From Verrucomicrobiota bacterium (GTDB lineage: Bacteria; Verrucomicrobiota; Verrucomicrobiia; Opitutales; Opitutaceae), in assembly GCA_003694825.1 (NCBI GenBank), contig RFJS01000352.1, positions 1-15,240 on the forward strand: DNA of 15,240 bases, in the 5' to 3' direction. The translations under genes were made by a program, and so were the position numbers. Below are positions 2 to 14,886 of this stretch, piece after piece; positions within the stretch are counted from its first letter, which is position 1, and each line of letters opens with the position of its first letter. The notes beneath the pieces were generated by a model. The model did not search any database, was not told where the DNA came from, and saw only the letters and a list, made by a program, of their open reading frames with translations.

Positions 2-628
2 ATTCTGCAGACGCCGGTGCGCATCCATGGCAGTGGTCGCACGGATACGGGCGTGCACGCCCTCGCCCAGGTTTTTCATTTCGATGCGGCCTGGCGCGGC
101 ACGCCGCAGCAGTTTGTTCGTGCCGTGGCGACGAAGCTCCCGGCCGGGGTGCAGGTGAAGACCCTCCGTCCGGTGCGGCGGGATTTTCATGCGCAACACG
201 ATGCGCGGGGCAAACGCTACCACTACCGGATCTTTCTCGGAAACGCGGGTCCGTTCGAGGCGCCCTGGTGCTGGTCGTGGCCGCGGCCGCTCGACTGGGA
301 ACGGATCGAGGCGGCGGCGGCGTGTCTGCGCGGGCGGCATGATTTCGCCGCCTTTTCCGCATGGAACGGCGACGAGAAGGCGACGACCGTGCGGGAGTTG
401 CATCGTCTCGACATTCGCCGGCGCGGCCGTCGGGTGCGCATCACGCTCGAGGCCGACGGGTTTCTCTATAAGATGGCCCGTTCGATCGTCGGGGCGCTGG
501 TGGCCGTGGGCGCCGGCAAACTGGAACCGGAGGCGATCGAGACGCTGTTGCGCACGGGCCGGCGCGTCCCCGCTGTCGTGACCGCGCCGGCGCAGGGACT
601 GTTTCTCGAGCGGGTCTTTTATGGATGA
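2..628 (+). CDS. truA: tRNA pseudouridine(38-40) synthase TruA, 5' end cut off by window edge
   Basis: TruA isomerises uridines 38-40 in the anticodon stem of tRNAs to pseudouridine in the cytoplasm. The frame is open from base 2 to the TGA at 626-628, giving 208 residues. The family is usually about 245-270 residues, so roughly 40-50 N-terminal residues and the true start lie before the window. The GTG at 17 is inside the gene and is not the start. The family's catalytic motif GRTDTGVHA is visible near the left edge and contains the catalytic Asp. A conserved RYHYRI segment follows, then HDFAAFSA, and a C-terminal RSIVGAL helix typical of the second TruA domain. The 3' end overlaps the next gene by 8 nt, suggesting translational coupling. 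Identification is firm; only the start is unknown. Confidence 0.95.
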   Translation: MLQTPVRIHGSGRTDTGVHALAQVFHFDAAWRGTPQQFVRAVATKLPAGVQVKTLRPVRRDFHAQHDARGKRYHYRIFLGNAGPFEAPWCWSWPRPLDWERIEAAAACLRGRHDFAAFSAWNGDEKATTVRELHRLDIRRRGRRVRITLEADGFLYKMARSIVGALVAVGAGKLEPEAIETLLRTGRRVPAVVTAPAQGLFLERVFYG

Positions 629-1388
629 ACAAGCGCCAGCCGGTGGCGGCGGATCGGCGCGTCCCTGGCGGGCGCTTTTCGAGGGGATGGCGGATGTGCT
701 GTTTCCGCCGAACTGCGTGGGATGTGAAGGCCTCGTCGAAGCGGATAGCTCTTTTCACACCCTCTGCCGGCAATGTGCCCGGAGGCTGGTGCTCGTGCGC
801 CCGCCCAACTGCGCGACCTGCGGCTACCCGTTTTTCGGCGCGATGGCTGAAAGCGGCGAGTGTCCGCACTGTGCCGAACTCAGACCGGTCTTCGGCGAGG
901 GGCGGACGGTGACGCTCCTGCATGGGCCGATGCGAGCGGTCGTGCATGCCTTGAAATACCGGGGCGCGACGTGGGTGCTGCGAGACATCCGCCGGATCGT
1001 CGCGGCGAGCCCGCACCTGCCCGGATTTCTCCGGGGAGCGACGCTGGTTCCCGTGCCGCTGCATCCGCGCAAGCGGCGGGAACGTGGTTACAACCAGGCC
1101 GAGCTGATTGCCCGGATATTTACAGAAGTCGCTCCCGTGAAGGAGGTTGCGCCGATCCTGTCGCGTGTCGTCGACACGCCGACACAGACTCGGCTCGACC
1201 GGCGCGGACGCCAGGCGAACCTGAAAAATGCCTTTGCCTTGGCTGCCGGGGCACAGGTAGTTTCCGACGATCGTTATGTCCTCGTCGATGATGTCTTCAC
1301 AACCGGCTCCACGCTCAATGCGTGTGCCCGTGTCCTCCGCCAGGCGGGCGTGAGGCAGATCGACGTCGCCACGTTGGGCCACGGCTGA
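621..1388 (+). CDS. ComF-family phosphoribosyltransferase-like protein
   Basis: This 255-residue protein has the ComF architecture. The N-terminal part carries four CxxC pairs (Cys32/35, 49/52, 64/67, 81/84) that look like double zinc ribbons. The C-terminal part is a type I phosphoribosyltransferase domain ending in a PRPP-binding loop, [12 protein letters not shown], at about 230-241. Another family landmark is [18 protein letters not shown] at about 143-160. ComF proteins of naturally competent bacteria take part in handling incoming single-stranded DNA, but many genomes carry the family without demonstrated competence, so a role in transformation is only a possibility. The ATG at 621 lies within the last codons of truA; no clear Shine-Dalgarno sequence precedes it, so coupling is likely. 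accD starts 8 nt after its stop. The family call is secure; the substrate is unknown. Confidence 0.9.
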
Positions 1389-1396
1389 CCGCAACC

Positions 1397-2269
1397 ATGT
1401 CGCTCTTCAGCAAACCGAAGTATTCCACCGTCACGGTCAAAAAACGGGACATTCCCCAGGGCCTCTGGAAGAAATGCCCCGTCTCCGGCGAGATCATCTA
1501 CGTCAAGGAGCTGGAGGAGAACCAGAACGTCGTTCCCCGCAGCGGCTACCACTTTCCGATCAGCGCGCCGGAGCGGATCGCGAAGCTCGTCGATCCCGAC
1601 ACATGGGAGGAGTTTGACCGCGGCCTGAAATCGGTCGACGCACTCGGGTTTGTGGACTCGAAGCCCTATTCGGAGCGCCTGGAAAAATACGAAAAGGCCA
1701 CAGGCCTGAATGACGCCGTCGCCTGTGGCGTGGGGCGAATCCATGGCATCGAGGTTTCGCTGGCGGTGATGGACTTCCGTTTTGCCGGCGGATCGATGGG
1801 GTCGGTCGTCGGTGAGAAAATCACGCGCGCCATCGAGCGGGCGATCGAGCGGAAGATTCCGTGCATCGTTTTCTCGGCGTCGGGTGGAGCTCGCATGCAG
1901 GAGGGGATCCTCAGCCTCATGCAGATGGCCAAGACCAGTGCCGCGCTGGCGCACCTCGCCGAGGCGAAGCTGCCGTTTATCTCCGTGCTGACCAACCCGA
2001 CCACGGGTGGAGTCACCGCGAGTTTCGCGGTGTTGGGCGATGTCATCCTCGCCGAACCGGGGGCACTCATCGGTTTCGCCGGCCCGCGCGTCATCAAGGA
2101 AACCACCCAGCAGGAACTGCCCGAAGGTTTCCAGTCGGCGGAGTTTCTGCTCGAGCACGGCCTGATTGACCAGATCGTCAGTCGGCTCGAGATGCGCGAC
2201 CGTCTGCGGGACATCCTCACGGCGCTCCACGTGAAAAGGCAGAAGCAGCCAGCTGAGGCCGCCCGCTGA
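1397..2269 (+). CDS. accD: Acetyl-CoA carboxylase carboxyltransferase subunit beta, with degenerate zinc ribbon
   Basis: AccD, with AccA, transfers the carboxyl group from carboxybiotin to acetyl-CoA to make malonyl-CoA for fatty acid synthesis. The 290-residue length and the crotonase-fold landmarks fit: SGGARMQEG, then [12 protein letters not shown], then [15 protein letters not shown]. The ATG at 1397 gives the usual MSLFSKPKY start. The frame stays open upstream to 1322, but that stretch overlaps the preceding gene and has no AccD character. The N-terminal four-cysteine zinc ribbon is degraded. The first cysteine remains (Cys27, in KCPVSG), but the other three expected positions read Ser30, Val46 and Ser49 (VVPRSGYH where families have VCPxCGYH). 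The surrounding residues are well kept, so this is substitution rather than misalignment. accA is not in the window. Confidence 0.95.
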
Positions 2270-2289
2270 GAAAAGTCCGTCCAGCAGCG

Positions 2290-3231
2290 ATGAGCGCGAC
2301 CCTCGGGAAGGTGGCGGTCGTCGGCGCCGGTGCCGTAGGCTCCTATTACGGAGCGCGTCTCGCCCGGGCCGGTGAAGAGGTGCATTTCCTGATGCGGCGC
2401 GACTACGACGCCGTGCGCGAGCGTGGTCTTTCCGTGCGGATCGACGCGCCCGAGGTCAGGGAGTCTTTTCATCTCTCAGCGCCGCGGGTGTATCGGAATA
2501 CGCGCGAGATTGGTCCGGTCGACTGGGTTGTCGTCGGCATCAAGGCGACTGCGCGCGATGCCCTCGTGGAATTGCTGCCGCCGTTGCTCGGGGCGGACAC
2601 CTCGATTCTTCTCCTGCAAAACGGCCTCGGCATCGACGAGTGGGCGGCGGAGCGATTCGGGGCGGACCGCATCGTGGGCGGCTTGTGCTTCGTCTGTCTC
2701 AACCGCACGGCGCCGGCGGTGGTGGAGTGCTATCATCCGGGATCGGTCAGCATCGGCGAATTCAACCGCCCGGCGGGGAGCCAGGCGCACACGATCGCCG
2801 CCGCTTTCGAGCGGGCCGGCGTCAAATGCCGCGTGGCCGACAACCTGATGGAGATGCGCTGGCGCAAGCTCGTCTGGAACGTGCCGTTCAACGGTCTGAG
2901 CGTGGCCGAAGGCGGCATGACCACGGATCGAATCCTCGAAGACCCCCGCCTTGCCGCGGAGGTGCGTGCGCTCATGGGAGAGGTGCAGTCGGCGGCCGCC
3001 GCATTCGGTTTTTCGATACCCGATGATTTCCTCGAGCAGATGATCGATGTCACCCGGCGGATGGGTGCCTACAAGCCATCCAGCATGGTGGACTTCCTGG
3101 CCGGGCGCTCCGTCGAGGTCGAAGCGATCTGGGGCGAGCCGCTTCGCCGCGCGCGCGCCGCGGGAGTGGCGATGCCGCGGCTGTCGGCGCTCTATGAGCG
3201 CCTCCTGGCTCTCTGTCCGAAGCGGGCCTGA
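2290..3231 (+). CDS. panE: 2-dehydropantoate 2-reductase (ketopantoate reductase)
   Basis: This 313-residue protein fits the ApbA/PanE family, which reduces 2-dehydropantoate to pantoate with NADPH in pantothenate and coenzyme A synthesis. The N-terminal Rossmann motif VGAGAVGSYYG lies at about 11-21. A QNGLG segment follows at about 110-114. The catalytic region KLVWNVPFNGLS has Lys193, Asn197 and Asn201 with the K-x3-N-x3-N spacing of characterised enzymes. The C-terminal domain has the family's SSMVDFLAGRSVEVEAIWG segment. The ATG at 2290 starts 20 nt after accD. Family members with other 2-keto acid substrates exist, so the pantoate role is inferred from these residues. The gene converges on nuoN across only 17 bp. 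Confidence 0.88.
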   Translation: MSATLGKVAVVGAGAVGSYYGARLARAGEEVHFLMRRDYDAVRERGLSVRIDAPEVRESFHLSAPRVYRNTREIGPVDWVVVGIKATARDALVELLPPLLGADTSILLLQNGLGIDEWAAERFGADRIVGGLCFVCLNRTAPAVVECYHPGSVSIGEFNRPAGSQAHTIAAAFERAGVKCRVADNLMEMRWRKLVWNVPFNGLSVAEGGMTTDRILEDPRLAAEVRALMGEVQSAAAAFGFSIPDDFLEQMIDVTRRMGAYKPSSMVDFLAGRSVEVEAIWGEPLRRARAAGVAMPRLSALYERLLALCPKRA

Positions 3232-3248: not shown

Positions 3249-4676
3249 TCAGGGAACCGCGACGACGCTGGCGAGCGACGTGGTGATGGCGTCGATCACG
3301 GGAGCCGGGGTGACTCCGAGCAGAATGACGATCGCAATCAACCCGATGCACAGGGCGCGCGTCGAGCCATCCAGGGCAATCGGCATCTGATCGGTGGCGT
3401 CCCGGTCGCCGAAAAACGAAGCGTGCACGACCCGGAGGTAGTAGTAGGCCGCGATCGCGGTGTTGATCACCGCGAGGATGACCAGCACGGTGTGCCCCCG
3501 GGCGAAGGCGGCGTTGAGCAGGGCGAATTTGCCCATGAAGCCGACAAACGGCGGAATCCCGGCCAGCGCGAAGATCCCGATCACCATGGTCAGAGCCAGC
3601 AGGGGCGAGCGGCGGTGCAGGCCGTGCAGATCCTCGATGGCGACGTTCTCACCGTCGCGCGAGACCCGTGAAATGACCACGAAGCATGCCAGCACCATGA
3701 AGAGGTATCCCGTCATGTAATACAACGAGGCAGAGAACCCCGCTTCGTCGAGGGCGACAAAGCCCAGGAGCGTGTAGCCGGCATGGGCGATCGTGGAAAA
3801 GCCGAGCAGGCGCTTGAGGTCGCGCTGAACCAGAGCCACGAGGTTTCCATAAAACATCGAGGCAACGGCGAGAACGGTGAGGATCTCCGTGATGAGCTGA
3901 TTGTCGGGCGTGGCCGCAGCGGCGAAGCGCACGAGGATGACGACGGCCCCGAGCTTCGGCATCGAGGCGATGATGCCGGCGGTTTCGTTGGACGCGCCCT
4001 GGTAGACGTCGGGTGTCCAGAAGTGGAAGGGGAAGACGGCGAGCTTGTAGTAAAGCCCGGCGAAGGTCAGGCCGAGGCCGGCCAGCGCGAGCGGCCCGTC
4101 GATCACCGGTTGGAGGCGCTGCACCATGAGCGGAATCGAGGTGGTGCTCGTCAGGCCGTAGAGGTAGCTCAGCCCGAAGAGCATCACGCCGTTGGCCGCG
4201 ACCCCGAACATCATGAACTTGATCGCCGATTCCATCTGCATCCGCTGGCCTTCGCGTTCCCGGCGCATGGCGACAAGGAGGAAAAGCGGGAACGAGGACA
4301 GCTCGAGAGAGACGACGAGCGTGATCGCGTCGATGCTGCTGGCGAGAAAGACGAAGCCCGTCATCGAGATTCCCAGAAACAGGAAAAACTCCGGCCGAAT
4401 GTCCGGCCGGATGTCGTCGACGCGCCGGCCGAGCAGAATCACCGCGAGGTAGCCCACGCCGAACGCGAGCTTGAGCCACTGTGAGAACAGATCGACCCGA
4501 TAGGCACCGTCGAAGAGCGTGGCTTCGCTGCGCAGCGTGATCAGGCAGCTGACGACGAGGGCGGCGGCCGTCGCGAGAGAGACCGCCCGCGCACGGGCGA
4601 CTCGGTCGTTGTAGAGCGTGACGACGAACACGGCGAGCACGCCGGCGAGCAGCACCAGCTCGGGAAGAAAGGCCAT
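3249..4676 (-). CDS. nuoN: NADH-quinone oxidoreductase subunit N (complex I antiporter-like subunit)
   Basis: NuoN is a polytopic proton-pumping subunit of the complex I membrane arm, closest to the NuoA/H/J/K end. Residues needed for pumping are present: Glu125 in TM5 (SLELSSFPLF), Lys211 in TM7 (YYKLAVFPFHFWTPD), Lys241 in TM8 (MPKLGAVV) and Lys in TM12 (FMGKFALLNAAF). The frame also has an ATG at 4694 (6 residues longer), but the ATG at 4676 has an AGGA Shine-Dalgarno core 7 nt upstream and gives MAFLPELVLL, so it is preferred here. Length is 475 residues, normal for the family. It is the last gene of the nuo operon and ends 17 bp from the convergent panE stop. Confidence 0.95.
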   Translation of the reverse strand: MAFLPELVLLAGVLAVFVVTLYNDRVARARAVSLATAAALVVSCLITLRSEATLFDGAYRVDLFSQWLKLAFGVGYLAVILLGRRVDDIRPDIRPEFFLFLGISMTGFVFLASSIDAITLVVSLELSSFPLFLLVAMRREREGQRMQMESAIKFMMFGVAANGVMLFGLSYLYGLTSTTSIPLMVQRLQPVIDGPLALAGLGLTFAGLYYKLAVFPFHFWTPDVYQGASNETAGIIASMPKLGAVVILVRFAAAATPDNQLITEILTVLAVASMFYGNLVALVQRDLKRLLGFSTIAHAGYTLLGFVALDEAGFSASLYYMTGYLFMVLACFVVISRVSRDGENVAIEDLHGLHRRSPLLALTMVIGIFALAGIPPFVGFMGKFALLNAAFARGHTVLVILAVINTAIAAYYYLRVVHASFFGDRDATDQMPIALDGSTRALCIGLIAIVILLGVTPAPVIDAITTSLASVVAVP

Positions 4677-4717
4677 GATGAATTCCTGGATCATCTCAGC
4701 AAAAAGGGGGCTTCAGA

Positions 4718-6235
4718 TCATTGCAGAGCGACGGCGGCGTCGGTCGCTCCGGGCGCAGCGGCGGCAACGATGTTGAGGATGTTTTGAATGCTCGCCTCCA
4801 TCAGCTCGACAAAGGGACCCGGCTGGAGGCCAATCCAAAGGACGAATACGGCGAAACACGCCAGCGTCGCGACCTCGCGGAAGTCCAGCGGACTCACGCC
4901 GGAGTGGTCGGGATTGTTTGTTCCGCCGAAGGCGACCCGCTGGAGCATGCGCAGATTGTAGGCGGCGGCGACCACGACGCCCGGGACGGCCCAGAGGGCG
5001 ATGCGTGTCGCCGCGGCGAAGGCGCCGCCCAGCACGAGAAATTCGCCGATAAAGCTGTTCGTGCCCGGAAAGGCGAGCGATGAGAGGCAGAAGAGGCCAA
5101 GGAAACCGGCGAAGCCCGGCATCTGTTTGCCCAGCCCGGCTGCGGCCCCGAGCTCGCGCGTGTGCAGGCGCTCATAGATGATGCCGACGGCCACGAAGAG
5201 CGCGCCGGTGCTCACGCCGTGGTTGATCATCACCAGAGCGCCGCCGGTGACGCCGTTCTGCACGAGCGAGAAAATGCCGAGCGTGGCAAAGCCCATGTGT
5301 CCGACGCTCGAATACGCGACGATCTTCTTCAGGTCGCTCTGTGCCAGGGCGGCGAGTCCGCCGTAGATGATGGCGATGACCGAGAGCCAGAGGATCGCTT
5401 CGGAGAAATAGACCGAGGCATACGGGGTGATCGGCAGGCAGAAACGCAGGAAGCCGTAGGTGCCCATCTTCAGGAGCACGCTGGCGAGGATCACACTGCC
5501 CGCGGTCGGCGCTTCCACGTGCGCGGCGGGAAGCCACGTGTGGAACGGGAACATCGGCACCTTGATGGCGAAGGAGATGAAAAACGCCCCGAAGATCCAC
5601 AGTTGGAAGGCCGGATCGTAGGGGCGGTTCATCAGGCCGGGGATGTTGAACGTGCCCGTCTGCATGCGCAGGGCGATGATGGCGACGAGCAGCAGAATCG
5701 ATCCCGACATCGTGTAGATGAAGAACTTGATCGCGGCGTAGACCTTGCGGGGACCACCCCACACGCCGATCATCACGCTCATCGGGATGAGCATCGCCTC
5801 CCAGAAGATAAAGAAGAGAACGAAATCGAGCGCGGCGAAGACACCGACCATGGCCGTCTCCATCACGAGCAGGCAGACCATGAACTCCTTGACGCGGTCC
5901 TTGATGTAGCGCCAGGAGGCCAGCACGCACAGCGGCGTGATCAGCGTCGTGAGCAGCACGAGCAGCAGGCTGATGCCGTCGATGCCCAGTGTGTAGTGGA
6001 TCCCGAGACGCTCGATCCAGACCTTGTGCTCGACGTATTGGAAATCCGGAACGGCCGGATTGAATTCGCGCAGGAGCAACAGCGAAAAAAGGCCGATCGC
6101 CGCACTGGAGAGAAAGGCCCACCAGCGCACGGCGCGGTCGCTGCGCAGCGCGAGCGCCACCGCGGCGGCGATGAGCGGCGCGAAGATCAGGATGCTGAGA
6201 ATCGGAAGTCCTCCGGATGGACTGAGAGAAGTCAT
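4718..6235 (-). CDS. nuoM: NADH-quinone oxidoreductase subunit M (complex I antiporter-like subunit)
   Basis: This 505-residue polytopic membrane protein is a clear NuoM, a proton-pumping subunit in the middle of the membrane arm. The pumping residues are all in place: Glu146 in TM5 (FFIFWEAMLIPM), Lys225 in TM7 (FAIKVPMFPFHTWLP), Lys256 in TM8 (LLKMGTYGFLR) and the NuoM-specific Glu398 in TM12 (SFIGEFLVLGG), where NuoL and NuoN have Lys. The SDLKKIVAYSSVGHMGF segment is typical of the family. The ATG at 6235 lies 9 nt after the preceding antiporter gene and has no obvious Shine-Dalgarno sequence, so it probably relies on coupling. Confidence 0.96.
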   Translation of the reverse strand: MTSLSPSGGLPILSILIFAPLIAAAVALALRSDRAVRWWAFLSSAAIGLFSLLLLREFNPAVPDFQYVEHKVWIERLGIHYTLGIDGISLLLVLLTTLITPLCVLASWRYIKDRVKEFMVCLLVMETAMVGVFAALDFVLFFIFWEAMLIPMSVMIGVWGGPRKVYAAIKFFIYTMSGSILLLVAIIALRMQTGTFNIPGLMNRPYDPAFQLWIFGAFFISFAIKVPMFPFHTWLPAAHVEAPTAGSVILASVLLKMGTYGFLRFCLPITPYASVYFSEAILWLSVIAIIYGGLAALAQSDLKKIVAYSSVGHMGFATLGIFSLVQNGVTGGALVMINHGVSTGALFVAVGIIYERLHTRELGAAAGLGKQMPGFAGFLGLFCLSSLAFPGTNSFIGEFLVLGGAFAAATRIALWAVPGVVVAAAYNLRMLQRVAFGGTNNPDHSGVSPLDFREVATLACFAVFVLWIGLQPGPFVELMEASIQNILNIVAAAAPGATDAAVALQ

Positions 6236-6244
6236 CGGTCGGGC

Positions 6245-8026
6245 TCAAAAGGCGATGAGATAGGCCACGATCAGGGCGGCTGCCGTGGCGAAGGCGAAAG
6301 TGAGGTTTTCCTGCAGGGAACCGCGCTGCAGCCCGCGAACCCGGGCACCGCAGGCGCGGACCTTCGCGCCGACCCCGTCGACGATGCCGTCGATGACGCG
6401 GTTGTCGAAAACGGCGGCGACGAGGGCGAGGCGCATGAGGCCGACGAGGCCGAGGGTGCGGTAGAGTTCGCCCCAGGCGTTGTCGATGGCCTGGATGGGT
6501 TTGCGGGCGAGCCAGTAGAAGGCGCGGCCGGCCATGCGGTAGGGCCAGTCGAGGTCGATGCTGATCGTCGGCGTGGGCTCGAGTTTCTTCAGCAGCAGGA
6601 AAAAGCCGACGCCCGTGAAGCAGAGCAGGAGCATCGTCTCGGAAATGTGATACGATGTGTATGGGTCGTAATCCACCGGGTAGGGGAGCATCCGGTAGAG
6701 GAAGGGCGTGTAGACGCCGATGAAGATGCACAGGAACGAGGCGATCGCCATGGCCGCGATCATGTTCCAGCCCGGGTCGGCGGCCCGGCGCCAGGTCTCT
6801 TCCCGGCAGTTGTTTTTTCCGAACCAGATAAAATAGGGCACCTTCAGGCCGGTGTGCAGAAACGTTCCGACCGAGGCGAGCGTCAGCAGGAAACCGACCC
6901 ACAGCTTGTGGTCCTCGAAGCCGGCGGCGATGATCATGGACTTGCTGACGAAGCCGCTGAACAGCGGGAAGGCCGAGATCGACAGGCCGCCGATCATCGT
7001 GAACACGAAGGTCCACGGCATCTTTTTGTAGAGGCCGCCGAGTTCGGTGAACTTGCTCTGCCCGGTCATGAAAAGGACCGAGCCGCATCCCATGAACAGC
7101 AACCCCTTGTAGAGGATGTGGGCAAAGGCATGCGCCACCGTGCCGTTGATCGCCATCTGGGTGCCCAGGCCGACGCCGGCCACCATGTAGCCGACCTGGC
7201 TGATGATGTGGTAGGCGAGCAGGCGGCGGCAGTCGTTTTCGAGCACCGCGTAGACGACGCCGTAGAGCGCCATGATCACCCCGAGCACGATGAGGATCTC
7301 CATCCCCGGGAACCCACGGGCCAGCGCGTAAACCGCCGTCTTGGTGGTGAAGGCCGAGAGGAAAACCGAACCGTTGAACGTGCCCTCGCCATAGGCGTCG
7401 GGCAGCCAGGCGTGCAGCGGCGGCACTGCGGCGTTGAGGATGAAGCCGCCGAGAATGAGCCACATGGCGAGATCCGGGTGGTGGACGTCGAAGGCGGTGA
7501 AACTGTAGTCGCCGTTGCGCGCCATGCCGACGAGCACGATGCCCGCGAGCAGGGCGAGGCCGCTCACGGTGTGCACGAGCAGATAGCGGAAGCCGGCGCC
7601 GAGCGCCTTCGGGGTCCGGCGTGCCCAGATGAGAAATACCGACGAGAAGGCCATCAGCTCCCAGAAGAGGAAGAGGGCGAGGAGATCCCCGGCGAAGATC
7701 ACGCCGAGCGAACCGGCGACATAGGTCCATGCGGCGATGTGCTGGCCGTCGTCGTCGACCTTCAGGCCGTAGAGCGTGCCGATGATCGCCATCAGGCTCA
7801 TGATGTAGGCGAAGACCCGGCTCAGGGCGTCGATGCGGCCGAAGGTCAGCGTCCACTCGAGAAACTCGACGGTGCCAAAAACGCCCTCGGGCATGGTGGC
7901 GACGCGGGCGAAAACGACGATGGGCACGAGCAGCAGCCAGCCCTTTTTCACGGCCCGCGGCAGCAGGGGCAGGATCGCCGCGCCGAGCAGAAGCAGAAGC
8001 GACGGATGCAGCCAGAAATCACTCAT
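6245..8026 (-). CDS. NuoL-position antiporter subunit: MrpD-like core with NuoL-like C-terminal lateral-helix region
   Basis: This 593-residue polytopic membrane protein sits where nuoL normally lies. Its core resembles MrpD-type monovalent cation/proton antiporter subunits more than textbook NuoL: FWELMAFSSVFLI in TM5 (Glu123), LHAWLPDAYGEG after TM7, and VFLSAFTTKTAVYALAR in TM8 (Lys229). The TM12 region has FVSKSM (Lys362). The TM7 lysine position of the family holds Asn198 (ILNAAVPPLHAWLPD). Beyond about residue 480 a long extension continues through VIDGIVDGVGAKVRACG and GLQRGSLQ to a final hydrophobic helix (about 575-593), which matches the arrangement of the NuoL lateral helix and last TM helix. 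The ATG at 8026 is supported by a strong GGAGGA site; the open frame upstream to 8065 overlaps the preceding gene. It probably forms the distal pump; ion specificity cannot be told from sequence. Confidence 0.85.
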   Translation of the reverse strand: MSDFWLHPSLLLLLGAAILPLLPRAVKKGWLLLVPIVVFARVATMPEGVFGTVEFLEWTLTFGRIDALSRVFAYIMSLMAIIGTLYGLKVDDDGQHIAAWTYVAGSLGVIFAGDLLALFLFWELMAFSSVFLIWARRTPKALGAGFRYLLVHTVSGLALLAGIVLVGMARNGDYSFTAFDVHHPDLAMWLILGGFILNAAVPPLHAWLPDAYGEGTFNGSVFLSAFTTKTAVYALARGFPGMEILIVLGVIMALYGVVYAVLENDCRRLLAYHIISQVGYMVAGVGLGTQMAINGTVAHAFAHILYKGLLFMGCGSVLFMTGQSKFTELGGLYKKMPWTFVFTMIGGLSISAFPLFSGFVSKSMIIAAGFEDHKLWVGFLLTLASVGTFLHTGLKVPYFIWFGKNNCREETWRRAADPGWNMIAAMAIASFLCIFIGVYTPFLYRMLPYPVDYDPYTSYHISETMLLLCFTGVGFFLLLKKLEPTPTISIDLDWPYRMAGRAFYWLARKPIQAIDNAWGELYRTLGLVGLMRLALVAAVFDNRVIDGIVDGVGAKVRACGARVRGLQRGSLQENLTFAFATAAALIVAYLIAF

Positions 8027-8279
8027 CGTAGTAGTCCTCCCGCTGCATGATGCCGAGCTTTCCATACCACTTGGAAAGCACGATCAGGATGATGCATCCC
8101 ACCAGGCCGAAGACGGCCCAGAATCCGGGGATCTTTTCGATCTGCGTGTGGGCGTGGTGCTTGTCCACCACGAACGGCAGGGCGTCGAGGACGACGAGCA
8201 ACGCCAGGAAGCCGTAGCACACCCGAATGACCGTCTTCAGGTGCTCGCGCAGATAGTCAATGAGGCGGACGAGATTCAT
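8019..8279 (-). CDS. Uncharacterised 86-aa two-helix membrane protein in the complex I operon
   Basis: This small protein has two predicted membrane helices, at about residues 17-38 and 51-70. The loop between them is charged and histidine-containing (VDKHHAHTQIEK), followed by IPGFWAVFGLVGC and a C-terminal tail ending in MQREDYYDE. The start overlaps the preceding antiporter gene by an ATGA and its stop overlaps the following antiporter gene by 8 nt, so translation is tightly coupled to both. That placement, together with compositional coherence, makes it a real gene. From memory, similar short proteins lie between antiporter-D-like genes in other bacteria, but I know no assigned function. 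It is not NuoK or an obvious MrpC/F/G. The inference is an accessory or assembly subunit bridging the two MrpD-like pumps. Confidence 0.85.
   Translation of the reverse strand: MNLVRLIDYLREHLKTVIRVCYGFLALLVVLDALPFVVDKHHAHTQIEKIPGFWAVFGLVGCIILIVLSKWYGKLGIMQREDYYDE
8035..8040 (-). promoter_or_regulatory. Strong Shine-Dalgarno site for the NuoL-position gene
   Basis: On the minus strand GGAGGA lies 8 nt before the ATG at 8026. It fixes the start of the 593-residue antiporter subunit. It is inside the coding sequence of the 86-aa protein, whose last codons overlap the downstream start. It is the clearest ribosome binding site among the starts examined in this operon. Confidence 0.8.
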
Positions 8280-9763
8280 GGGACAACAGCCTGGACGAAT
8301 TGCATGAAGAAATCGGGGAAGATACCGATGAGCACCGACAACACGGCGGTGATGGTCAGCGGTACGACCATGGCCGGGGAGGCTTCACGGTATTGCCGGT
8401 CGGCGTCGCCGGGAGGCGGCGCGGCGAAGAAGGCGCGGTAGGCGACCGGCGCGAAGTAGGCGGCGTTGAGCAGAGTGCTGGTGAGGAGCACGACCATCAG
8501 GCCGATCGAACCTGCGTCCCAGGCGCCGAGCACGAGATACCACTTGGAGATGAAGCCCGCCACCGGCGGCACACCGATCATGCTCAGCGACGCGATGGCG
8601 AACGCGCCGAAGGTCCACGGCATCGCCCGGCCGAGACCGTCCATTTCGGAGATGTTTTTCTTGTGCGTGGCCACGTAGATCGCGCCAGCGCAGAAGAACA
8701 GGGTGATCTTCGAGAAGGCGTGATTGGCGATGTGAACGATGCCGCCCTCGATCCCGTGCGGGGTGAGCAGGGCGACACCGAGGACGATGTAGGAGAGCTG
8801 CGAAACCGTCGAGTAGGCGAGCCGCGATTTGAGGTTGTCCTTGCTCAGTGCGATGACCGAGGCGAGCAGGATCGTGATTGAGACGAACCACGCTGTGGGC
8901 AGGCCGAGGTTGAGCGCGGTCATGGTGTCGGTGCCGAAGACATACAGCATCACCCGCACCGTGGAGAACACGCCGACCTTCACGACCGCGACGGCATGGA
9001 GCAGGGCGCTGACGGGCGTGGGCGCCACCATCGCTCCCGGCAGCCAGTGGTGCAGAGGCATGATGCCGTTTTTGGCGAACCCGAGCAGGCAGGCGATGTA
9101 GAGGGCGACGACCACCGTGTTGTGCACGCCGGCAGGGAGGATGCCGGTGGTGATGTCGTGCGCGAAGTCGAGAGTGCCGCTGAGCACGTAGATCAGGACC
9201 ATCGCCGGCAGGATCAGCGCCTTGGCCGTGGTGGTGAGATAGACGAGATACTTGCGGGCGCCCTCGTAGCCCTCCTCGTCCTGATGGTGGGCGACGAGGG
9301 GGTAGGTCGTGATGCTCACGATCTCGTAGAACAGGTAGAGGGTGAGCAGGTTGTCGGAAAAGGCGCACCCGATCGCGCCGAAGATGGCCAGGGCGAAGCA
9401 GGTGTTGAACCGCGTCTGCGCATGCTCCTGCAATCCGCGCATGTATCCGGCGGAGTAGAACACTGTGAGCGTCCACAGGAACGAGGCCACGAGCGCGAAG
9501 ACCATCGAGAGGGCGTCGGCCCGCAGCGTGAAGCTCAGCCCCGGCAGCAGCTCGAACAGCGTCCAGGTGAGCGTCTGGCCGGCCCGGATCGCCGGGATGA
9601 GCGAGACGACGATTCCGAACAGGACGACGGCGGAGACGAACGAAACCGCCTCGCGCAGATTGGGGCGTTTGCCGGTTGCCATCACCAGGCCCGCGCCCAC
9701 CAGGGGCGTCAGCACGGCCCAGAGCAACCGCGAGTCGTTGACGATTTCCACGGGACTATCCAC
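8276..9763 (-). CDS. MrpD-like monovalent cation/proton antiporter subunit (extra complex I pump)
   Basis: This 495-residue polytopic protein belongs to the NuoL/M/N-MrpA/D antiporter family and looks most like MrpD. The pumping residues are present: Glu147 in TM5 (LYLFYEIVSITTYP), Lys231 in TM7 (FAKNGIMPLHHWLPGAM), Lys262 in TM8 (AVVKVGVFSTVR) and Lys407 in TM12 (FISKWYLVLG). It also has APTPVSALLHAV and LKSRLAYSTVSQLSYI, both typical of the family. It lacks the C-terminal extension of NuoL, ending soon after the core. The start is a GTG at 9763, overlapping the nuoK stop by 8 nt; a second in-frame GTG at 9751 is an alternative. It is additional to the NuoL-position, NuoM and NuoN subunits, so the operon encodes four such proteins. 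Whether it pumps protons or sodium is not decidable here. Confidence 0.88.
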   Translation of the reverse strand: MDSPVEIVNDSRLLWAVLTPLVGAGLVMATGKRPNLREAVSFVSAVVLFGIVVSLIPAIRAGQTLTWTLFELLPGLSFTLRADALSMVFALVASFLWTLTVFYSAGYMRGLQEHAQTRFNTCFALAIFGAIGCAFSDNLLTLYLFYEIVSITTYPLVAHHQDEEGYEGARKYLVYLTTTAKALILPAMVLIYVLSGTLDFAHDITTGILPAGVHNTVVVALYIACLLGFAKNGIMPLHHWLPGAMVAPTPVSALLHAVAVVKVGVFSTVRVMLYVFGTDTMTALNLGLPTAWFVSITILLASVIALSKDNLKSRLAYSTVSQLSYIVLGVALLTPHGIEGGIVHIANHAFSKITLFFCAGAIYVATHKKNISEMDGLGRAMPWTFGAFAIASLSMIGVPPVAGFISKWYLVLGAWDAGSIGLMVVLLTSTLLNAAYFAPVAYRAFFAAPPPGDADRQYREASPAMVVPLTITAVLSVLIGIFPDFFMQFVQAVVP

Positions 9764-10082
9764 TGAGTTCCGAAAGCTCCGAGGTTTTGATCGACCGGTA
9801 GTTGCGATACACGGCGATGATGACGCTCAGGGCGATGGCCACCTCCGCGGCGGCCAGCCCCATGATGAAAAGCACGAACACCTGCCCGACGGTCGGGTCC
9901 GCCGAGTAGAAGCGGTTCACGGCCATGATGTTGAGCATGGCGGCGCTGAAGATCAGCTCGCCGGCGATGAGCATGCCGATGAGCGTGCGGCGCCGCAGCA
10001 GACCGAAGATGCCGAGAGCGAGCACGGCGGCGGCCACGATCAGATAGGGCTGAGGTTGCTGATACAGCTCGATGATATTCAT
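9756..10082 (-). CDS. nuoK: NADH-quinone oxidoreductase subunit K
   Basis: NuoK is a three-helix membrane subunit (MrpC-like) near the junction with the quinone-binding part of complex I. The 108-residue product has the two buried glutamates of the family, Glu42 in TM2 (IAGELIFSAAMLN) and Glu80 in TM3 (LAAAEVAIALSVI). The ATG at 10082 overlaps the nuoJ stop as ATGA. The open frame extends upstream to 10316, but that part is nuoJ in another frame and has no NuoK character. The stop overlaps the MrpD-like gene by 8 nt. Confidence 0.95.
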   Translation of the reverse strand: MNIIELYQQPQPYLIVAAAVLALGIFGLLRRRTLIGMLIAGELIFSAAMLNIMAVNRFYSADPTVGQVFVLFIMGLAAAEVAIALSVIIAVYRNYRSIKTSELSELSG

Positions 10083-10612
10083 GGGTGACGATGCCTCCCG
10101 ATGCGGGCGATGGCGAGGGCGCCGAGGATGGCGACCAGCAGCACCAGTGAAATGACCTCGAAGGCCATGCTGTAGGTGGAAAGCAGAGACACCCCGATGT
10201 CCTGGATCGTGCCGTCGTTGAGGCGGATGGCGGGCGTGGTCCAATCCCCGAGCACGCCGAGCCGCGCGGCGCTCCAGAAGATCGCGGTGCACACGATGAT
10301 GGCGGCGATGCTCCACAGCACGGAGTGGCGCGGCGACTCATCGACGATCTCCTGCGGCTCGGCCAGCATGATCGCGAAGACGATCGTCACGCACACCGCG
10401 CCGACGTAGATAAGCAGCTCCATCAACGCGAGGAACGGGCTGTTGAGAAAGTAGTAGAGGCCGGCGAGCCCGACGGATGTCAGGGCGAGGCCGCACACGC
10501 TGCGGATCACGCGGACAGTGAAGACGGCCAGCAGCGAGCCGGCGATCGTCGCCGCGATGAACAGCAGGAAGAGCCCTGCGATGATGTATTCAGTTCCCGG
10601 CAGGCTGTTCAT
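10079..10612 (-). CDS. nuoJ: NADH-quinone oxidoreductase subunit J
   Basis: The 177-residue, five-helix membrane protein matches NuoJ in length, position and motif. The segment ALMELLIYVGAVCVTIVFAI is the conserved TM3 with its pi-bulge region, which couples quinone chemistry to the antiporter chain in known complex I structures. The C-terminal helix carries FEVISLVLLVAILGAL. The ATG at 10612 lies inside nuoI and overlaps its end by 23 nt; the stop forms an ATGA overlap with nuoK. Confidence 0.95.
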   Translation of the reverse strand: MNSLPGTEYIIAGLFLLFIAATIAGSLLAVFTVRVIRSVCGLALTSVGLAGLYYFLNSPFLALMELLIYVGAVCVTIVFAIMLAEPQEIVDESPRHSVLWSIAAIIVCTAIFWSAARLGVLGDWTTPAIRLNDGTIQDIGVSLLSTYSMAFEVISLVLLVAILGALAIARIGRHRHP

Positions 10613-11135
10613 TTTGGGTCGAAGATGATTCAGCGCTGGAGGAGGCCGTGTCGGCCGGCGGTGGCGCCACGGGGGTGGCGGCCTTTTTCCGGGCCTGGCG
10701 CTCCTCGAGCTGGTGGACGAGATCGATCAGGTGGAACTGCTGCTTGTCGGTGGAGGCGAGGTTGTAGGCCTTGGAATACTCGAGGGCATCGACCGGACAC
10801 ACCTCGATGCAGGCGCCGCAGAGGCTGCAGGTGGTGAAGTCGAGATGGAACCACGTGACCGACTTGCGCTTGGCTCCGGGCTTTTTCTCGCCGTCGAGTT
10901 CGATGCAGTCGCTCGGACAGGCCTTGGCGCAGAGCTGGCAGGCGATGCAGGTCGAGGTCCCGGTCTCGGGGTCGGGCTTGAATTGGATGTGGCCGCGGAA
11001 GCGCTCCGGGATCTTCGCGGTTTGCCGGGGGTAGTGGATCGTGACCGTCGGCTTGAAGAATTCACGCAGGGTGATGCCCATGCCTGTGAGCAGGCTCATG
11101 AATCCGCCGACGACTTCCTTAACTTGTGCGACCAT
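10590..11135 (-). CDS. nuoI: NADH-quinone oxidoreductase subunit I, two [4Fe-4S] clusters, with Ala/Pro/Ser tail
   Basis: NuoI carries the two tetranuclear iron-sulfur clusters (N6a, N6b) that pass electrons towards NuoB in the peripheral arm. Both binding motifs are intact: CIACQLCAKACP (Cys63/66/69/73) and CSLCGACIEVCP (Cys103/106/109/113). The product has 181 residues, and roughly the last 30 form a low-complexity Ala/Pro/Ser/Gln tail after QARKKAA, beyond the usual ferredoxin domain. The ATG at 11135 follows the nuoH stop by 3 nt. The N-terminal amphipathic stretch (FMSLLTGMGITLREFF) is typical of membrane-anchored NuoI. Confidence 0.96.
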   Translation of the reverse strand: MVAQVKEVVGGFMSLLTGMGITLREFFKPTVTIHYPRQTAKIPERFRGHIQFKPDPETGTSTCIACQLCAKACPSDCIELDGEKKPGAKRKSVTWFHLDFTTCSLCGACIEVCPVDALEYSKAYNLASTDKQQFHLIDLVHQLEERQARKKAATPVAPPPADTASSSAESSSTQNEQPAGN

Positions 11136-11138
11136 GGC

Positions 11139-12127
11139 TCAGAAGAGTTTCAGCATGGCGCTGGTCAGCAGCAGCGTGAACAGCGACAGCGGGATGAGGA
11201 TTTTCCAGGAGAGGTTGAGCAGGGCGTAGAACTGCGTGCGGGGGAATGTCCAGCGCACCCAGACGACGGTGAAGATGATCAGGTAGAGCTTGATGAGGAA
11301 CCACCAGATACCGGGCGCGAGCCCGAAGGGGCCGTGCCAGCCGCCGAGGAAGAGGATCACCGCCATGGCACTGCCCACGACGATGTTGGCGTATTCAGCC
11401 ATGAAGAACACGCCGAAGCCCATGCCCGCGTATTCGGTGAAGGCGCCGGCGACGAGCTCGCTCTCGGCCTCGGCCATGTCGAAGGGCGCGCGGTTGGTCT
11501 CGGCGAGCATGCAGATGAAAAAGATGACGAACGACGCCGGCATGAGCGGGTTCACCCAGACTTTGAAGAGGTTCCAGTGCCAGAAGCCGCCGGCCTGCTG
11601 GTCGACGATCTCGGTGAGGTTGAGCGTGCCCGTGATCATCACGAGGGTGATCACGGTCAGGAGCATCGGGACTCGTAGGCGACGTTCTGCGAGACGACGC
11701 GGGCGGCGGAGATGATGCCGTATTTGTTTCTCGAGGACCACCCCGCCAGCATGACCGAGATCACGTTGAAAGAGGCGAAGGCGAAGATCGCGAGCAACCC
11801 GACATTGATGTGGCGCGCCGCAAAAGTCTCGCTGAAGGGGACGACGGCGAAACAGGCCATGGCCGGGGCCATGATGACGATGGGCGCGAGCCGGAAGAGC
11901 AGGCGGTCCGCTCCCGGCGGCACGATGAACTGCTTCGTCATGAGCTTCACCGCGTCGGCGATGGGCTGGAGCAGCCCGGCCCAGCCGACTTCGGTGGGGC
12001 CGGCCCGGCGTTGGAAACGCGCCGCGCCCTTGCGCTCGACCCAGACGAGGTAGGCGGCGTTGAGGCCGACGAAGGCGGCGGCGATGACCAGGGCGATGAG
12101 GAGACGGACGGGTTCGGAGATCGTCAT
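11139..12127 (-). pseudogene. nuoH: NADH-quinone oxidoreductase subunit H, interrupted by a one-base frameshift
   Basis: NuoH is the membrane subunit that forms the quinone chamber with NuoB and NuoD. The N-terminal part (ATG at 12127, MTISEPVRLLIAL) runs through VWVERKGAARFQRRAGPTEV, GLLQPIADAVKLM and SQNVAYE, then hits a TGA shortly after about 11672. The C-terminal part continues in another frame with VPMLLTVITL, then AETNRAPFDMAEAESELVAG and FTEYAGMGFG, to the stop at 11139. One missing base, a G in gene orientation between 11672 and 11671, restores a continuous 329-residue protein with the usual NuoH length and residues on both sides. Nothing else is damaged, so a sequencing or assembly error is as likely as a real mutation. 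The type is given as pseudogene only because the frame is broken. The frame also runs upstream to a TTG at 12211, without NuoH character. Confidence 0.9.
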
Positions 12128-12245: not shown

Positions 12246-13376
12246 TCAGCGGTCGAGGTCGGGAATCACGAGGTCGAGGCTGCCCATGAGGGCGAGCGCA
12301 TCCGCCAGGAGCATGCCCTGGCACGCTTCCTCGAAGCAGCTCAGGTTGCAGAAACAGGGGGTGCGGAGCTTGACGCGGTAGGGGGTGGTGGTGCCGTTGC
12401 TGATGGCGCGGATGGTGAAGCGGCCGCGGGCGCCCTCGACGGCCATGCAGTAGTCGCCGGCCGGTGGCTTCACCGCCCGGGGCACCTTGGCCATGACCGG
12501 GCCGTCGGGCAGCTTGTCGAGCGCCTGCTCGATGATGCGCAGGCTCTGCTCGATCTCGGCCATGCGCACTTTGTAGCGCGCCATGCAGTCCCCCTCGGGG
12601 AAGGTCGGGATGTCGAATTGGAGGTCTGGATACACCCCGTAGGGCTCGGCTTTGCGCACGTCGTAGGCGATGCCGGCGCCGCGCAGGACGGGGCCGGTGG
12701 CGCCGTATTTGCGGCACATCTCGGCCGGGATTTCACCGATGCCCTCGAGCCGCTTGCGCAGGATGATGTTCTCGGTGACGAGTTTGTGGTAGGTCTTGAG
12801 CCGGGGGCGGAAATCCTTGATGAACTGGCGGGTTCCGGCGAGGAAGCTGTCGGTGACGTCCTCGCAGACGCCGCCGATGCGATAGTAGCAGTAGGTGAGC
12901 CGCGAGCCGGTGATCTCCTCGAGCAGGTCGAGGATGTGTTCGCGGTCGTCGAAGGCGTAGAGCATCGGCGTCATGCCCCCGAGGTCGATGAGGAACGCGC
13001 CCCACCAGACGAGGTGGCTGGAGATGCGGTTGAGCTCGGAGGTGATGACCCGAATGTATTCGGCCCGTGGGGGCACCTCGATGCCGCAGGCTTTTTCCGC
13101 GAGAGCGCACCAGGCGTGGGTGTACATCATCGCCCCGAGGTAGTCCATGCGGCTGGTGTTGGGCAGGAACTGTTCCCAGTTGCGGTTCTCGCCCATCTTC
13201 TCGTGCTCGCGGTGGATGTAGCCGGAGACGATCTCGGCGTTTTCGATGAACTCGCCGTCCATCGTGAGCTTGACGCGCAGCACGCCGTGGGTGGCCGGGT
13301 GTTGGGGCCCGAGGTTGAGCACGAAGGTCTCCTGCGGGCCCGTGCTGTGGGAGGTGGTGGTTTCAGGCGTCGACAT
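12246..13376 (-). CDS. nuoD: NADH-quinone oxidoreductase subunit D (49-kDa subunit)
   Basis: NuoD forms the quinone-reduction site together with NuoB. The 376-residue product contains the family's GPQHPATHGVLR at 23-34, followed by YIHREHEKMGENR, ELNRISSHLVWWG, YGATGPVLRGAG, a GDCMARYKVRMAEIEQS block and the terminal SLDLVIPDLDR. The ATG at 13376 overlaps the end of nuoC by 14 nt and has an AAGG site a few bases upstream. The open frame extends to 13676, but that upstream part lies over nuoC and is not NuoD-like. NuoC and NuoD are separate proteins here, not fused. Confidence 0.96.
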   Translation of the reverse strand: MSTPETTTSHSTGPQETFVLNLGPQHPATHGVLRVKLTMDGEFIENAEIVSGYIHREHEKMGENRNWEQFLPNTSRMDYLGAMMYTHAWCALAEKACGIEVPPRAEYIRVITSELNRISSHLVWWGAFLIDLGGMTPMLYAFDDREHILDLLEEITGSRLTYCYYRIGGVCEDVTDSFLAGTRQFIKDFRPRLKTYHKLVTENIILRKRLEGIGEIPAEMCRKYGATGPVLRGAGIAYDVRKAEPYGVYPDLQFDIPTFPEGDCMARYKVRMAEIEQSLRIIEQALDKLPDGPVMAKVPRAVKPPAGDYCMAVEGARGRFTIRAISNGTTTPYRVKLRTPCFCNLSCFEEACQGMLLADALALMGSLDLVIPDLDR

Positions 13377-13953
13377 CGGTGGCCTTGAAGTCTTTCCGCA
13401 GGGGAAACCCCTCCTGGTCGTCGGGAAGGATGAGGTGGATGAGATTGGGGTGGCCGACGAAGTCGATGCCGTAGAATTCCCAGGTTTCGCGCTCATGCCA
13501 GAGTGCGCCCGGGTAGATGGCGGAGATCGTCGGCACTTCGGGTTTCTCGCGCGGGATGCGCGTCCGGATGGTGATGTGGTGCGGGCCGTCCCAGTGGAAA
13601 AAGTCGTAGAGGACCTCGAGCTGATTGTCCTTGGGCCAGTCGGCACCGGAGACAATGTCGAGCGAGAATCCGGCACGGTCGAGGATGGAAACCGCGTCGA
13701 TGAGGCGATCCGGCGGCGCCTGCAATTCGAGGTCGTAGCCGTGGCGGGAGCGTTCGATGCGCCGGCAGGGCGGCTCGGGCTCCGGCGGCGGCTCGGCCTT
13801 TTCGGACGCGGCGGCGGATGCAGCGGTTTCGCTGTCGCCGGCGGTGCCAGCAGAGGCGGAGCCAGATTCCGCGTCGGGCGCTGTGGATACAGAATCCTCA
13901 GGCGGGAGCAGTTTCTGGAACTGCTCGAAAACTTCGTCGATGACGGTGCTCAT
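13363..13953 (-). CDS. nuoC: NADH-quinone oxidoreductase subunit C (30-kDa subunit) with Ala/Pro/Glu-rich linker
   Basis: NuoC is a peripheral-arm scaffold subunit beside NuoD. The C-terminal signature, [18 protein letters not shown] followed by LRKDF (about 153-189), is the classical 30-kDa-subunit motif. The ATG at 13953 overlaps the nuoB stop as ATGA; the open frame continuing to 14340 lies over nuoB and is not used. Of 196 residues, about 18-62 form a low-complexity linker rich in Ala, Ser, Glu and Pro, separating a short N-terminal helix ([16 protein letters not shown]) from the folded domain. The linker is unusual for the family but does not disturb the conserved part. Confidence 0.95.
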
Positions 13954-14459
13954 GCGGGCGTTTCGACTTTTGGCCAGCGGCGCTTGCCGGTGATTTTTTC
14001 CTCGAGGGTCAGGATGCCCTCGAGCAGGCCTTCGGGACGCGGCGGACAGCCCGGGACGTAGACGTCGACCGGGAAGAGTTTGTCCACTCCGAGTACCACG
14101 GAATATTGATCTGGATTGGTGAAGGGGCCGCCGGAGATGGCGCAGTTGCCCATGGCGATGACCCACTTGGGCTCGGGCATCTGGTCGTAGAGCGTCTTGA
14201 TGGGGGTGGCCATCTTGCGGTTGACCGTGCCGGCCACGATCATGACGTCCGCCTGGCGGGGGGATGGCCGAAATACCTCGGCGCCGAAGCGCGACATGTC
14301 GAACCGCGAGGCACCGGTGGCCATCATCTCGATGGCGCAACAGGCCAGGCCGAAGGTGAGCGGCCAGAGGGAGTTGGCCCGGCCCAGCGCGATCAGATCG
14401 TCGAGGGCGGCGAATTTGACGAGCGAGGAAAGATCAGGCTGCTGTAGTCTGTCGTTCAT
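13950..14459 (-). CDS. nuoB: NADH-quinone oxidoreductase subunit B, binds cluster N2
   Basis: NuoB holds the terminal [4Fe-4S] cluster N2 that reduces quinone. The four expected ligands are present: Cys40 and Cys41 ([10 protein letters not shown]), Cys106 (GNCAISGG) and Cys138 ([10 protein letters not shown]). The loop between Cys106 and Cys138 is 3 residues longer than in E. coli NuoB. The ATG at 14459 gives 169 residues beginning [10 protein letters not shown] and overlaps the end of nuoA by 26 nt. The frame also runs to a TTG at 14546, which would add a Pro-rich segment overlapping nuoA by 113 nt and is not favoured. No clear Shine-Dalgarno sequence precedes either start. Confidence 0.94.
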
Positions 14460-14886
14460 TGGGCTGGGGGGAGGGGATCCGCGAGGGTTGGCGGGCGGGG
14501 GCTCGGCGGGTCCACTTGAAGACGCCTTTTTTCCAGGCGTAGACAATGACGAGAGAAAGGATGCCGACGAAGATGATCAGTTCGACGAAGTCGCGCACCG
14601 GGAAGACCCGGTCGTAGACCATCGCGACAGGCACGAGGTAAAGCACGTCGACCGCGAACGCCACGAAGACCAGCGCGTAGAGATAATAGACCGCGCTGTA
14701 GCGAATCCACGCGTCGCCGATGGGGTCGACGCCGCACTCGATGTATTGATCCCGCTTGTTGATCGTCTGCCGGGTCTTGCGAGCGGAGAGGAGGTAAACC
14801 AGCACGAAAGGACCGATCGCGAAGAGCAAGCCGAGCAACGCAAATGCGGCGACGTAGATGAGGTCGGTCTGTTGGGTTTCAGGCAT
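14434..14886 (-). CDS. nuoA: NADH-quinone oxidoreductase subunit A
   Basis: NuoA is a three-helix membrane subunit next to NuoH and is the first gene of the operon. The 150-residue product has the ECG motif in its loop ([10 protein letters not shown]) and [29 protein letters not shown] across TM2. In most NuoA proteins the end of TM2 reads FDVEALYLFPWA; here the first acidic residue is Ala, the second is Asp rather than Glu, and the Trp is Val. The ATG at 14886 gives [15 protein letters not shown]. The bases upstream of it are pyrimidine-rich (CCACCTCC) with no Shine-Dalgarno sequence. A charged Arg/Pro/Gln-rich tail (about 125-150) overlaps the start of nuoB. Confidence 0.94.

Follow-up and report, generated by a model that had tools for sequence, protein, structure and literature searches.

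Contig RFJS01000352.1 of a Verrucomicrobiota bacterium of the family Opitutaceae (assembly GCA_003694825.1) carries a complex I operon in which two MrpD-like antiporter subunits and a small protein stand where NuoL would be expected. The window analysed here is the stretch of 15,240 nucleotides that starts at position 1 of this contig, and on its minus strand the genes follow one another from 14886 to 3249 in the order nuoABCDHIJK-D1-S-D2-M-N, with D1 and D2 denoting the MrpD-like subunits and S the small protein. An earlier note, made from the letters alone, had recorded four full-length genes of the NuoL/M/N-Mrp family in one operon, with starts at 9763, 8026, 6235 and 4676. This is borne out by the open reading frames (ORFs) and by PF00361, which matches all four proteins in a Pfam profile search of the organism's own genome (E 9.3e-47 to 6.0e-70). 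The features of the operon are the following (TM, transmembrane helix):

14434..14886, minus strand: nuoA (Pfam PF00507, E 1.5e-24).
13950..14546, minus strand: nuoB (Pfam PF01058, E 5.3e-31); the frame overlaps that of nuoA by 113 bases, and the start possibly lies further in.
13363..13953, minus strand: nuoC, starting with ATG at 13953 (enclosing frame matched by Pfam PF00329).
12246..13376, minus strand: nuoD, starting with ATG at 13376 (enclosing frame with 436 bits to NCBIfam PRK06075.1, cut-off 360).
11139..12127, minus strand: nuoH, broken once near 11672 and therefore spread over two frames (tblastn).
10590..11135, minus strand: nuoI (4Fe-4S families and position).
10079..10612, minus strand: nuoJ (Pfam PF00499, E 1.8e-30).
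9756..10082, minus strand: nuoK, starting with ATG at 10082 (enclosing frame matched by PF00420 and, above cut-off, by PRK05715.1-2).
8276..9763, minus strand: D1, MrpD1-like antiporter subunit of 495 residues (NF006236).
8019..8279, minus strand: S, protein of 86 residues with two hydrophobic stretches (by eye).
6245..8026, minus strand: D2, MrpD2-like subunit of 593 residues at the NuoL position, with a NuoL-like C-terminal part (NF009310).
7433..7435, minus strand: Asn codon at the position of the TM7 Lys in D2, residue 198 of 593.
6332..6550, minus strand: lateral helix region of D2 (helices 493-541 and 546-565 of the model, some parts at low confidence).
4718..6235, minus strand: nuoM, 505 residues, with the NuoM-type Glu in TM12 (TIGR01972, 588.1 bits, cut-off 263.8).
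3249..4676, minus strand: nuoN (TIGR01770, 341.3 bits, cut-off 332.6), ATG at 4676.

Neighbouring genes overlap by 8 bases (nuoK/D1), 4 bases (D1/S) and 8 bases (S/D2), which points to translational coupling. According to the ORF list and to Pfam and NCBIfam profile searches, nuoE, nuoF and nuoG are absent from the operon. The break in nuoH appears in tblastn with four NuoH relatives as two abutting matches that meet at 11672; it may be an assembly error or a real break.

The MrpD-like gene that the earlier note had placed directly after nuoK does adjoin it, and its product D1 scores 836.6 bits against the NCBIfam model NF006236 ('putative monovalent cation/H+ antiporter subunit D'; cut-off 663). 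The gene at the NuoL position encodes a second MrpD-like protein, D2, with 755.1 bits against NF009310 ('Na(+)/H(+) antiporter subunit D'; cut-off 564). Since D1 and D2 pass these cut-offs but, at 215.4 and 153.5 bits, fall far short of the 407.5 bits demanded by the NuoL family TIGR01974, NuoL is absent from the window operon, and two MrpD-like subunits stand in its place. The proposal of a subunit added to the standard NuoL, NuoM and NuoN thus holds for the number of four antiporter-like subunits, but NuoL itself is missing and D1 and D2 replace it. A NuoL plus an extra gene is rejected on the family scores and on the tree described below. A canonical complex I is rejected as well, NuoL being absent here and the canonical-type L of this genome lying on another contig. 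In alignments and in an AlphaFold2 model of D2 (mean predicted local distance difference test score 84.2), the stretch between TM15 and TM16 is NuoL-like. The fold of the model matches MrpD about as well as NuoL in a structural alignment that reaches residue 540 at most and leaves the last TM outside the comparison.

The small protein noticed before the NuoL-position gene is real. S belongs to a family of 588 proteins at E <= 0.001, its own copy counted, and matches no Pfam or NCBIfam family at that threshold. In an alignment of 22 rows, which includes the window and three rhizobial loci, its E-D-Y-Y end is at least 90% conserved. Most rows also have a HAHTxxE stretch, for which the three rhizobial rows show H(S/A)EYLWE. 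By this alignment, S is homologous between window-type and rhizobial loci.

The arrangement recurs in other genomes. Synteny was counted on the best 80 of 318 loci from a contig scan for relatives, and the taxa named among these 80 are Verrucomicrobia, Opitutaceae, Methylacidiphilum, Desulfobulbaceae, Desulfobacterales, Deltaproteobacteria and a few others. The full set of 13 genes is present in 56 of them, 44 of which extend at least 2 kb past both ends. Among the remaining 24, 20 are truncated by contig ends, three have no adjacent nuoABCD (L056, L059, L067) and one has no detected S (L121). In the three former loci nuoABCD does not adjoin nuoH-N, with more than 7 kb of upstream DNA available. 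By a midpoint rule, the genes present keep the order of the window in 78 of the 80 loci (L068 and L074 deviate), and a split nuoH, as in the window, occurs in two of the 80 (L068, L079). No locus of the 80 contains nuoE, nuoF or nuoG, while identical queries detect all three in 3/3 rhizobial control loci, and none has an ORF with canonical NuoL as its best match. In 38 genomes (the organism's own and 37 relatives), D1 is matched in eight relatives at 69-78% identity and in five others at 49-52%. Across the phylum, D1 occurs at E <= 1e-180 in 11 of 288 sampled genomes, own included, which makes this an accessory system.

A matching block is known from the green complex I of rhizobia, in which two MrpD-like subunits are described in place of NuoL (text consulted in PMC9040806). 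In a search of plasmid proteins, 98 of the 123 records matching D2 belong to Sinorhizobium, Rhizobium or Ensifer. For D1 the figure is 118 of 246 at a limit of 1e-30 that also admits remoter antiporters. The K-D1-S-D2-M-N block is annotated on plasmids of Ensifer, Sinorhizobium, Phyllobacterium and Rhizobium. Four rhizobial regions are annotated, in order, as J, K, 'monovalent cation/H+ antiporter subunit D family protein', a hypothetical protein of 84 residues, 'Na(+)/H(+) antiporter subunit D', M, N, A, B, C, D and E. Three of them go on with F and G, followed by a CBS-domain gene and I on the opposite strand, and the fourth (L127) ends within nuoE.

The phylogeny proposed in the earlier note was computed for 76 proteins in a quick IQ-TREE run, with the Shimodaira-Hasegawa-like approximate likelihood ratio test (SH-aLRT) and no bootstrap. 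It contains 15 complex I rows each of D1 and D2, taken from 113 D1 and 112 D2 sequences extracted, some of them short or duplicate. D1 from complex I and Mrp-like clusters together (SH-aLRT 100), D1 of complex I (97), D2 (100), NuoL (97), NuoM (99) and NuoN (100) form clades. Thus D1 and D2 are separate from each other and from NuoL, and each clade also includes members from Mrp-like clusters of relatives. The deep joins between the classes are unresolved, with several long branches meeting, and a single clade of complex I D2 is not rejected (approximately unbiased test, p-AU 0.62). The NuoM clade holds the window and verrucomicrobial, Desulfo-type and rhizobial loci. By this tree and test, MrpD1, MrpD2 and NuoM qualify as orthologues of their rhizobial counterparts. 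Rhizobial NuoN has no supported grouping with NuoN of the window and is only 32% identical to it, so that NuoN may have a history other than that of the D1-S-D2-M block.

The clades shared with Mrp-like clusters bear on a quite different explanation, by which D1-S-D2 would be a separate cation/proton antiporter with nothing but the operon in common with complex I, and the complex I proper would lack a subunit at the NuoL position. The Mrp-like clusters L039-L043 carry a D0-D1-S-D2 block, likely the source or sister of the complex I block, and the fold of D2, which fits MrpD about as well as NuoL, is also in line with such an antiporter. However, profile searches find only D1, S, D2 and M between nuoK and nuoN, and no mrpB, C, E, F or G. 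Furthermore, the order K-D1-S-D2-M-N is conserved, D1 of complex I forms a clade of its own, and D2 has the NuoL-like stretch between TM15 and TM16. An independent antiporter is therefore very improbable.

In E. coli complex I, as outlined in the part of PMC9271201 consulted, each antiporter subunit combines an ion pair of Lys with Glu or Asp, a Lys at the centre and a distal residue that is either Lys or Glu. The TM5 Glu and TM8 Lys that the earlier note had reported for all four proteins are confirmed by alignment in D1, D2, NuoM and NuoN, the Lys of NuoN lying one alignment column off. In D1 the TM5 Glu and the Lys of TM7, TM8 and TM12 are complete in 98/98 rows (the window, eight relatives, 80 contig-scan loci, five Mrp-like clusters and four rhizobial loci). 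In D2, by alignment column counts, Asn replaces the TM7 Lys in 87/87 complex I-type rows, namely the window (1/1), relatives (7/7), contig-scan loci (75/75) and rhizobial loci (4/4), and in 3/5 rows from Mrp-like clusters. D2 rows shorter than 400 residues were excluded from this count, which kept 75 of 80 contig-scan loci and seven of eight relatives, and the rows are partly non-independent, as several relatives are the same records as contig-scan loci (e.g. L032, L052). One of the 75 contig-scan D2 rows is gapped at the TM5 Glu. An Asp adjoins the distal Lys in 4/4 NuoL and in none of 20 D1 and 20 D2.

It is tempting to read the loss of the TM7 Lys as the sign of a dead pump. However, this Lys is also missing in canonical verrucomicrobial NuoM-type frames (L010, L026, L027, L028 and one in L058), which were classed by motif and position and, for L010, also by the tree, so that the reading as a dead pump carries less weight. 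A NuoM without the TM7 Lys in an apparently ordinary verrucomicrobial complex I is in itself a departure from the textbook pattern. A D2-specific His in TM6 occurs in 15/15 D2 of complex I and in 4/5 D2 of Mrp-like clusters. Its presence in one of the two D2 that retain the TM7 Lys leaves a compensation for the Asn unsupported.

From the end of TM15 to the Gly before TM16, three D2 have 88 residues and four NuoL 75-77, counted between motifs with the end of TM15 set by eye. The lateral helix region of D2 is thus 11-13 residues longer than that of NuoL, short of the approximately 26 reported for an added pump. This motif count supersedes an earlier one between two alignment anchors, which gave 73-74 residues for D2 of complex I (80 rows), 73 for rhizobial D2 (four rows), 59-74 for D2 of Mrp-like clusters (five rows), 53 for NuoL of E. 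coli and 68 for NuoL of three relatives; there, a fifth NuoL row (L028) was the wrong frame and L030 dropped out. Counting with a regular expression gave values anywhere between 5 and 132, which were discarded.

These data bear on the number of ions moved. One possibility, which we hold only tentatively, is a five-proton complex I with D2, D1, M and N all pumping in line and one more ion moved per two electrons than in the canonical enzyme. It draws on the four antiporter-like genes, the complete Glu/Lys/Lys/Lys set of D1 and the slightly longer TM15-to-TM16 stretch of D2. Furthermore, the canonical verrucomicrobial NuoM without the TM7 Lys indicates that its loss need not stop pumping, and 5 to 6 ions have been proposed for such complexes by Yu et al. 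(PMC9040806, text consulted). However, the Asn in all complex I-type D2 rows of at least 400 residues and the modest helix surplus, compared with the 26 residues described in the same text, speak against a full extra pump. The same two features weaken the higher number of ions per electron pair that the earlier note had put forward as a possibility. The lack of a surplus of about 26 residues also argues against a 2M-type complex I with a duplicated NuoM, as in Nitrospira. Such an enzyme would account for four antiporter-like subunits and corresponds to the variants of Chadwick et al. named in the earlier note, but the operon has a single NuoM and no NuoL, and neither D1 nor D2 belongs to the NuoM clade, which makes this assignment extremely improbable.

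The assembly (3.23 Mb, 601 contigs, 80.6% complete) contains nine antiporter-family matches: four in the window, three on contig C428 and two on C501. C428 encodes a canonical-type nuo set from B to N, in which separate L, M, N, F and G-like genes are present, and C501 an Mrp-type operon (most genes of both were named by eye). The canonical-type NuoL of this genome (L010, 10033-11922) contains one in-frame TAG. The NuoF profile has one match in the genome, on C428, below the curated cut-off; NuoG matches C428 and, more weakly, an 831-residue frame on C456, both below curated cut-offs. Beside the operon, 14 of 87 loci (80 from the contig scan and seven relatives; L035 and L083 are one record), all verrucomicrobial, have a gene for a GltD-like flavoprotein (Fer4_20 plus Pyr_redox_2), which in 11 loci lies on the same strand at 15-221 bases from the operon. 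Examples are:

L031, 13949-15520: GltD-like gene.
L059, 16619-18121: GltD-like gene.
L064, 2947-4413: GltD-like gene.

Seven of the 14 loci were profiled, and the GltD-like frames passed no NCBIfam cut-off. Genes for the alpha and beta subunits of a 2-oxoacid:ferredoxin oxidoreductase occur on the same strand in 9/87 loci, and in L064 and L070 these and the GltD-like gene all precede nuoA. Flanking frames fall into 197 families over the 87 loci, the largest of which, beside 16 loci, is mostly an antisense shadow of the GltD-like gene. The neighbours profiled at Desulfo-type loci differ from these (Mur ligase, aminotransferase, LysR, RimP). Given the GltD-like and oxidoreductase neighbours, the best guess for the donor, and a lead only, is ferredoxin, or NAD(P)H through the GltD-like protein. 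The contig of the window ends before such a neighbourhood would be visible. On its other side (2-3231, plus strand) lie genes convergent with nuoN: a truA-like frame (by eye), then comF-like, accD and 2-dehydropantoate 2-reductase-like genes.

With this gene content and its conservation, the family assignments, the residue patterns, the absence of NuoL and NuoEFG from the operon and the NuoL-like C-terminal part of D2, the product is very probably a green-type complex I that lacks NuoEFG and has MrpD1, S and MrpD2 in place of NuoL. NuoA-D, H and I would form the quinone-reducing base, and the inner membrane arm would consist of J, K, N and M. All four antiporter-like subunits would belong to one complex, where D2 may take over the structural role of NuoL, D1 may add a complete antiporter unit beside it and S may pack against or link the two. 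Electrons would come not from NADH via an own NuoF but from another donor, most likely ferredoxin or a GltD-like flavoprotein; quinone would be reduced and protons moved out. Most likely, N, M and D1 are complete as pumps, and D2 forms a NuoL-like end piece that may or may not pump.

Within this NuoEFG-less green-type complex, the work of NuoL might even be split, an idea as speculative as that of five protons. D1 would keep the Glu/Lys/Lys/Lys path, and D2, without the ion-pair Lys, would mainly carry the lateral helix. As the extra length of the D2 helix falls short of a whole unit, D1 would lie beyond D2 at the end of the arm, and S would occupy the junction of the two. Four antiporter-like subunits would then not mean five protons per two electrons, and counting paralogues would therefore not give the number of pumped ions, and in some Verrucomicrobiota a GltD-like flavoprotein would replace NuoEFG as the electron entry. 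The ion number of complex I and the spread of the pulse along the membrane arm are debated, and natural complexes that differ in their number of antiporter-like subunits, and in which one such subunit lacks the ion-pair Lys, are test objects for the pumping question. The finding also draws attention to S as a conserved small subunit.

Among known systems, the closest is the rhizobial green complex I. The link to variants with added subunits drawn in the earlier note holds, but it leads to this enzyme and not to the 2M complex I of Chadwick et al. The layout with NuoL replaced by two MrpD-like proteins and a small membrane protein was first described in root-nodule bacteria, and the rhizobial enzyme is reported as upregulated in symbiosis (text consulted in PMC7415380). 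Comparison of operon layouts, as the earlier note had suggested, gives the same order J-K-D1-S-D2-M-N with S in the matching place, and D1, D2 and M of the window are 56%, 52% and 54% identical to those of Ensifer (L124), compared with the 32% of NuoN. The rhizobial operon, however, has nuoEFG, with A-G after N and I and H on the other strand, whereas ABCDHI come first in the window and EFG are absent. Because none of the 80 loci has the nuoEFG of the rhizobial type, the system is classed as a variant. Green complex I thereby extends beyond rhizobia: Verrucomicrobiota and Desulfo-type genomes have a form of it that lacks an NADH module of its own. In the portions of the literature compared, these phyla are not linked to green complex I by name, and the titles and abstract openings searched gave no description of a NuoEFG-less form.

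Complex_I_3 of Ca. Manganitrophaceae likewise has two MrpD-like subunits related to the rhizobial ones, but also two NuoM, hence five antiporter-like subunits, and a 26-residue insertion in the amphipathic helix of MrpD2 (PMC9040806, as far as consulted). The 2M complex I, in the sources as far as consulted, shares the number of four antiporter-like subunits and differs in its additional NuoM and the insertion in the NuoL helix, one NuoM and no NuoL being present here. The Mrp-like clusters L039-L043 share the D1-S-D2 block, but there mrp genes and a further MrpD-like gene, not nuo genes, precede it, and the TM7 Lys of D2 is kept in 2/5. Three MrpD genes, as in L039-L043, are also found in the MrpEFGBCD1D2D3 listed for Verruconatronum in the part of PMC13274419 consulted, a likeness at the level of gene lists. 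The same source lists NuoNM1M2LKJHIDCBA for Verruconatronum alginivorum, likewise a complex I from the Verrucomicrobiota that lacks EFG and has four antiporter-like genes. The genes are labelled M1, M2 and L with no small gene named, and this may be the same type of complex I under other labels.

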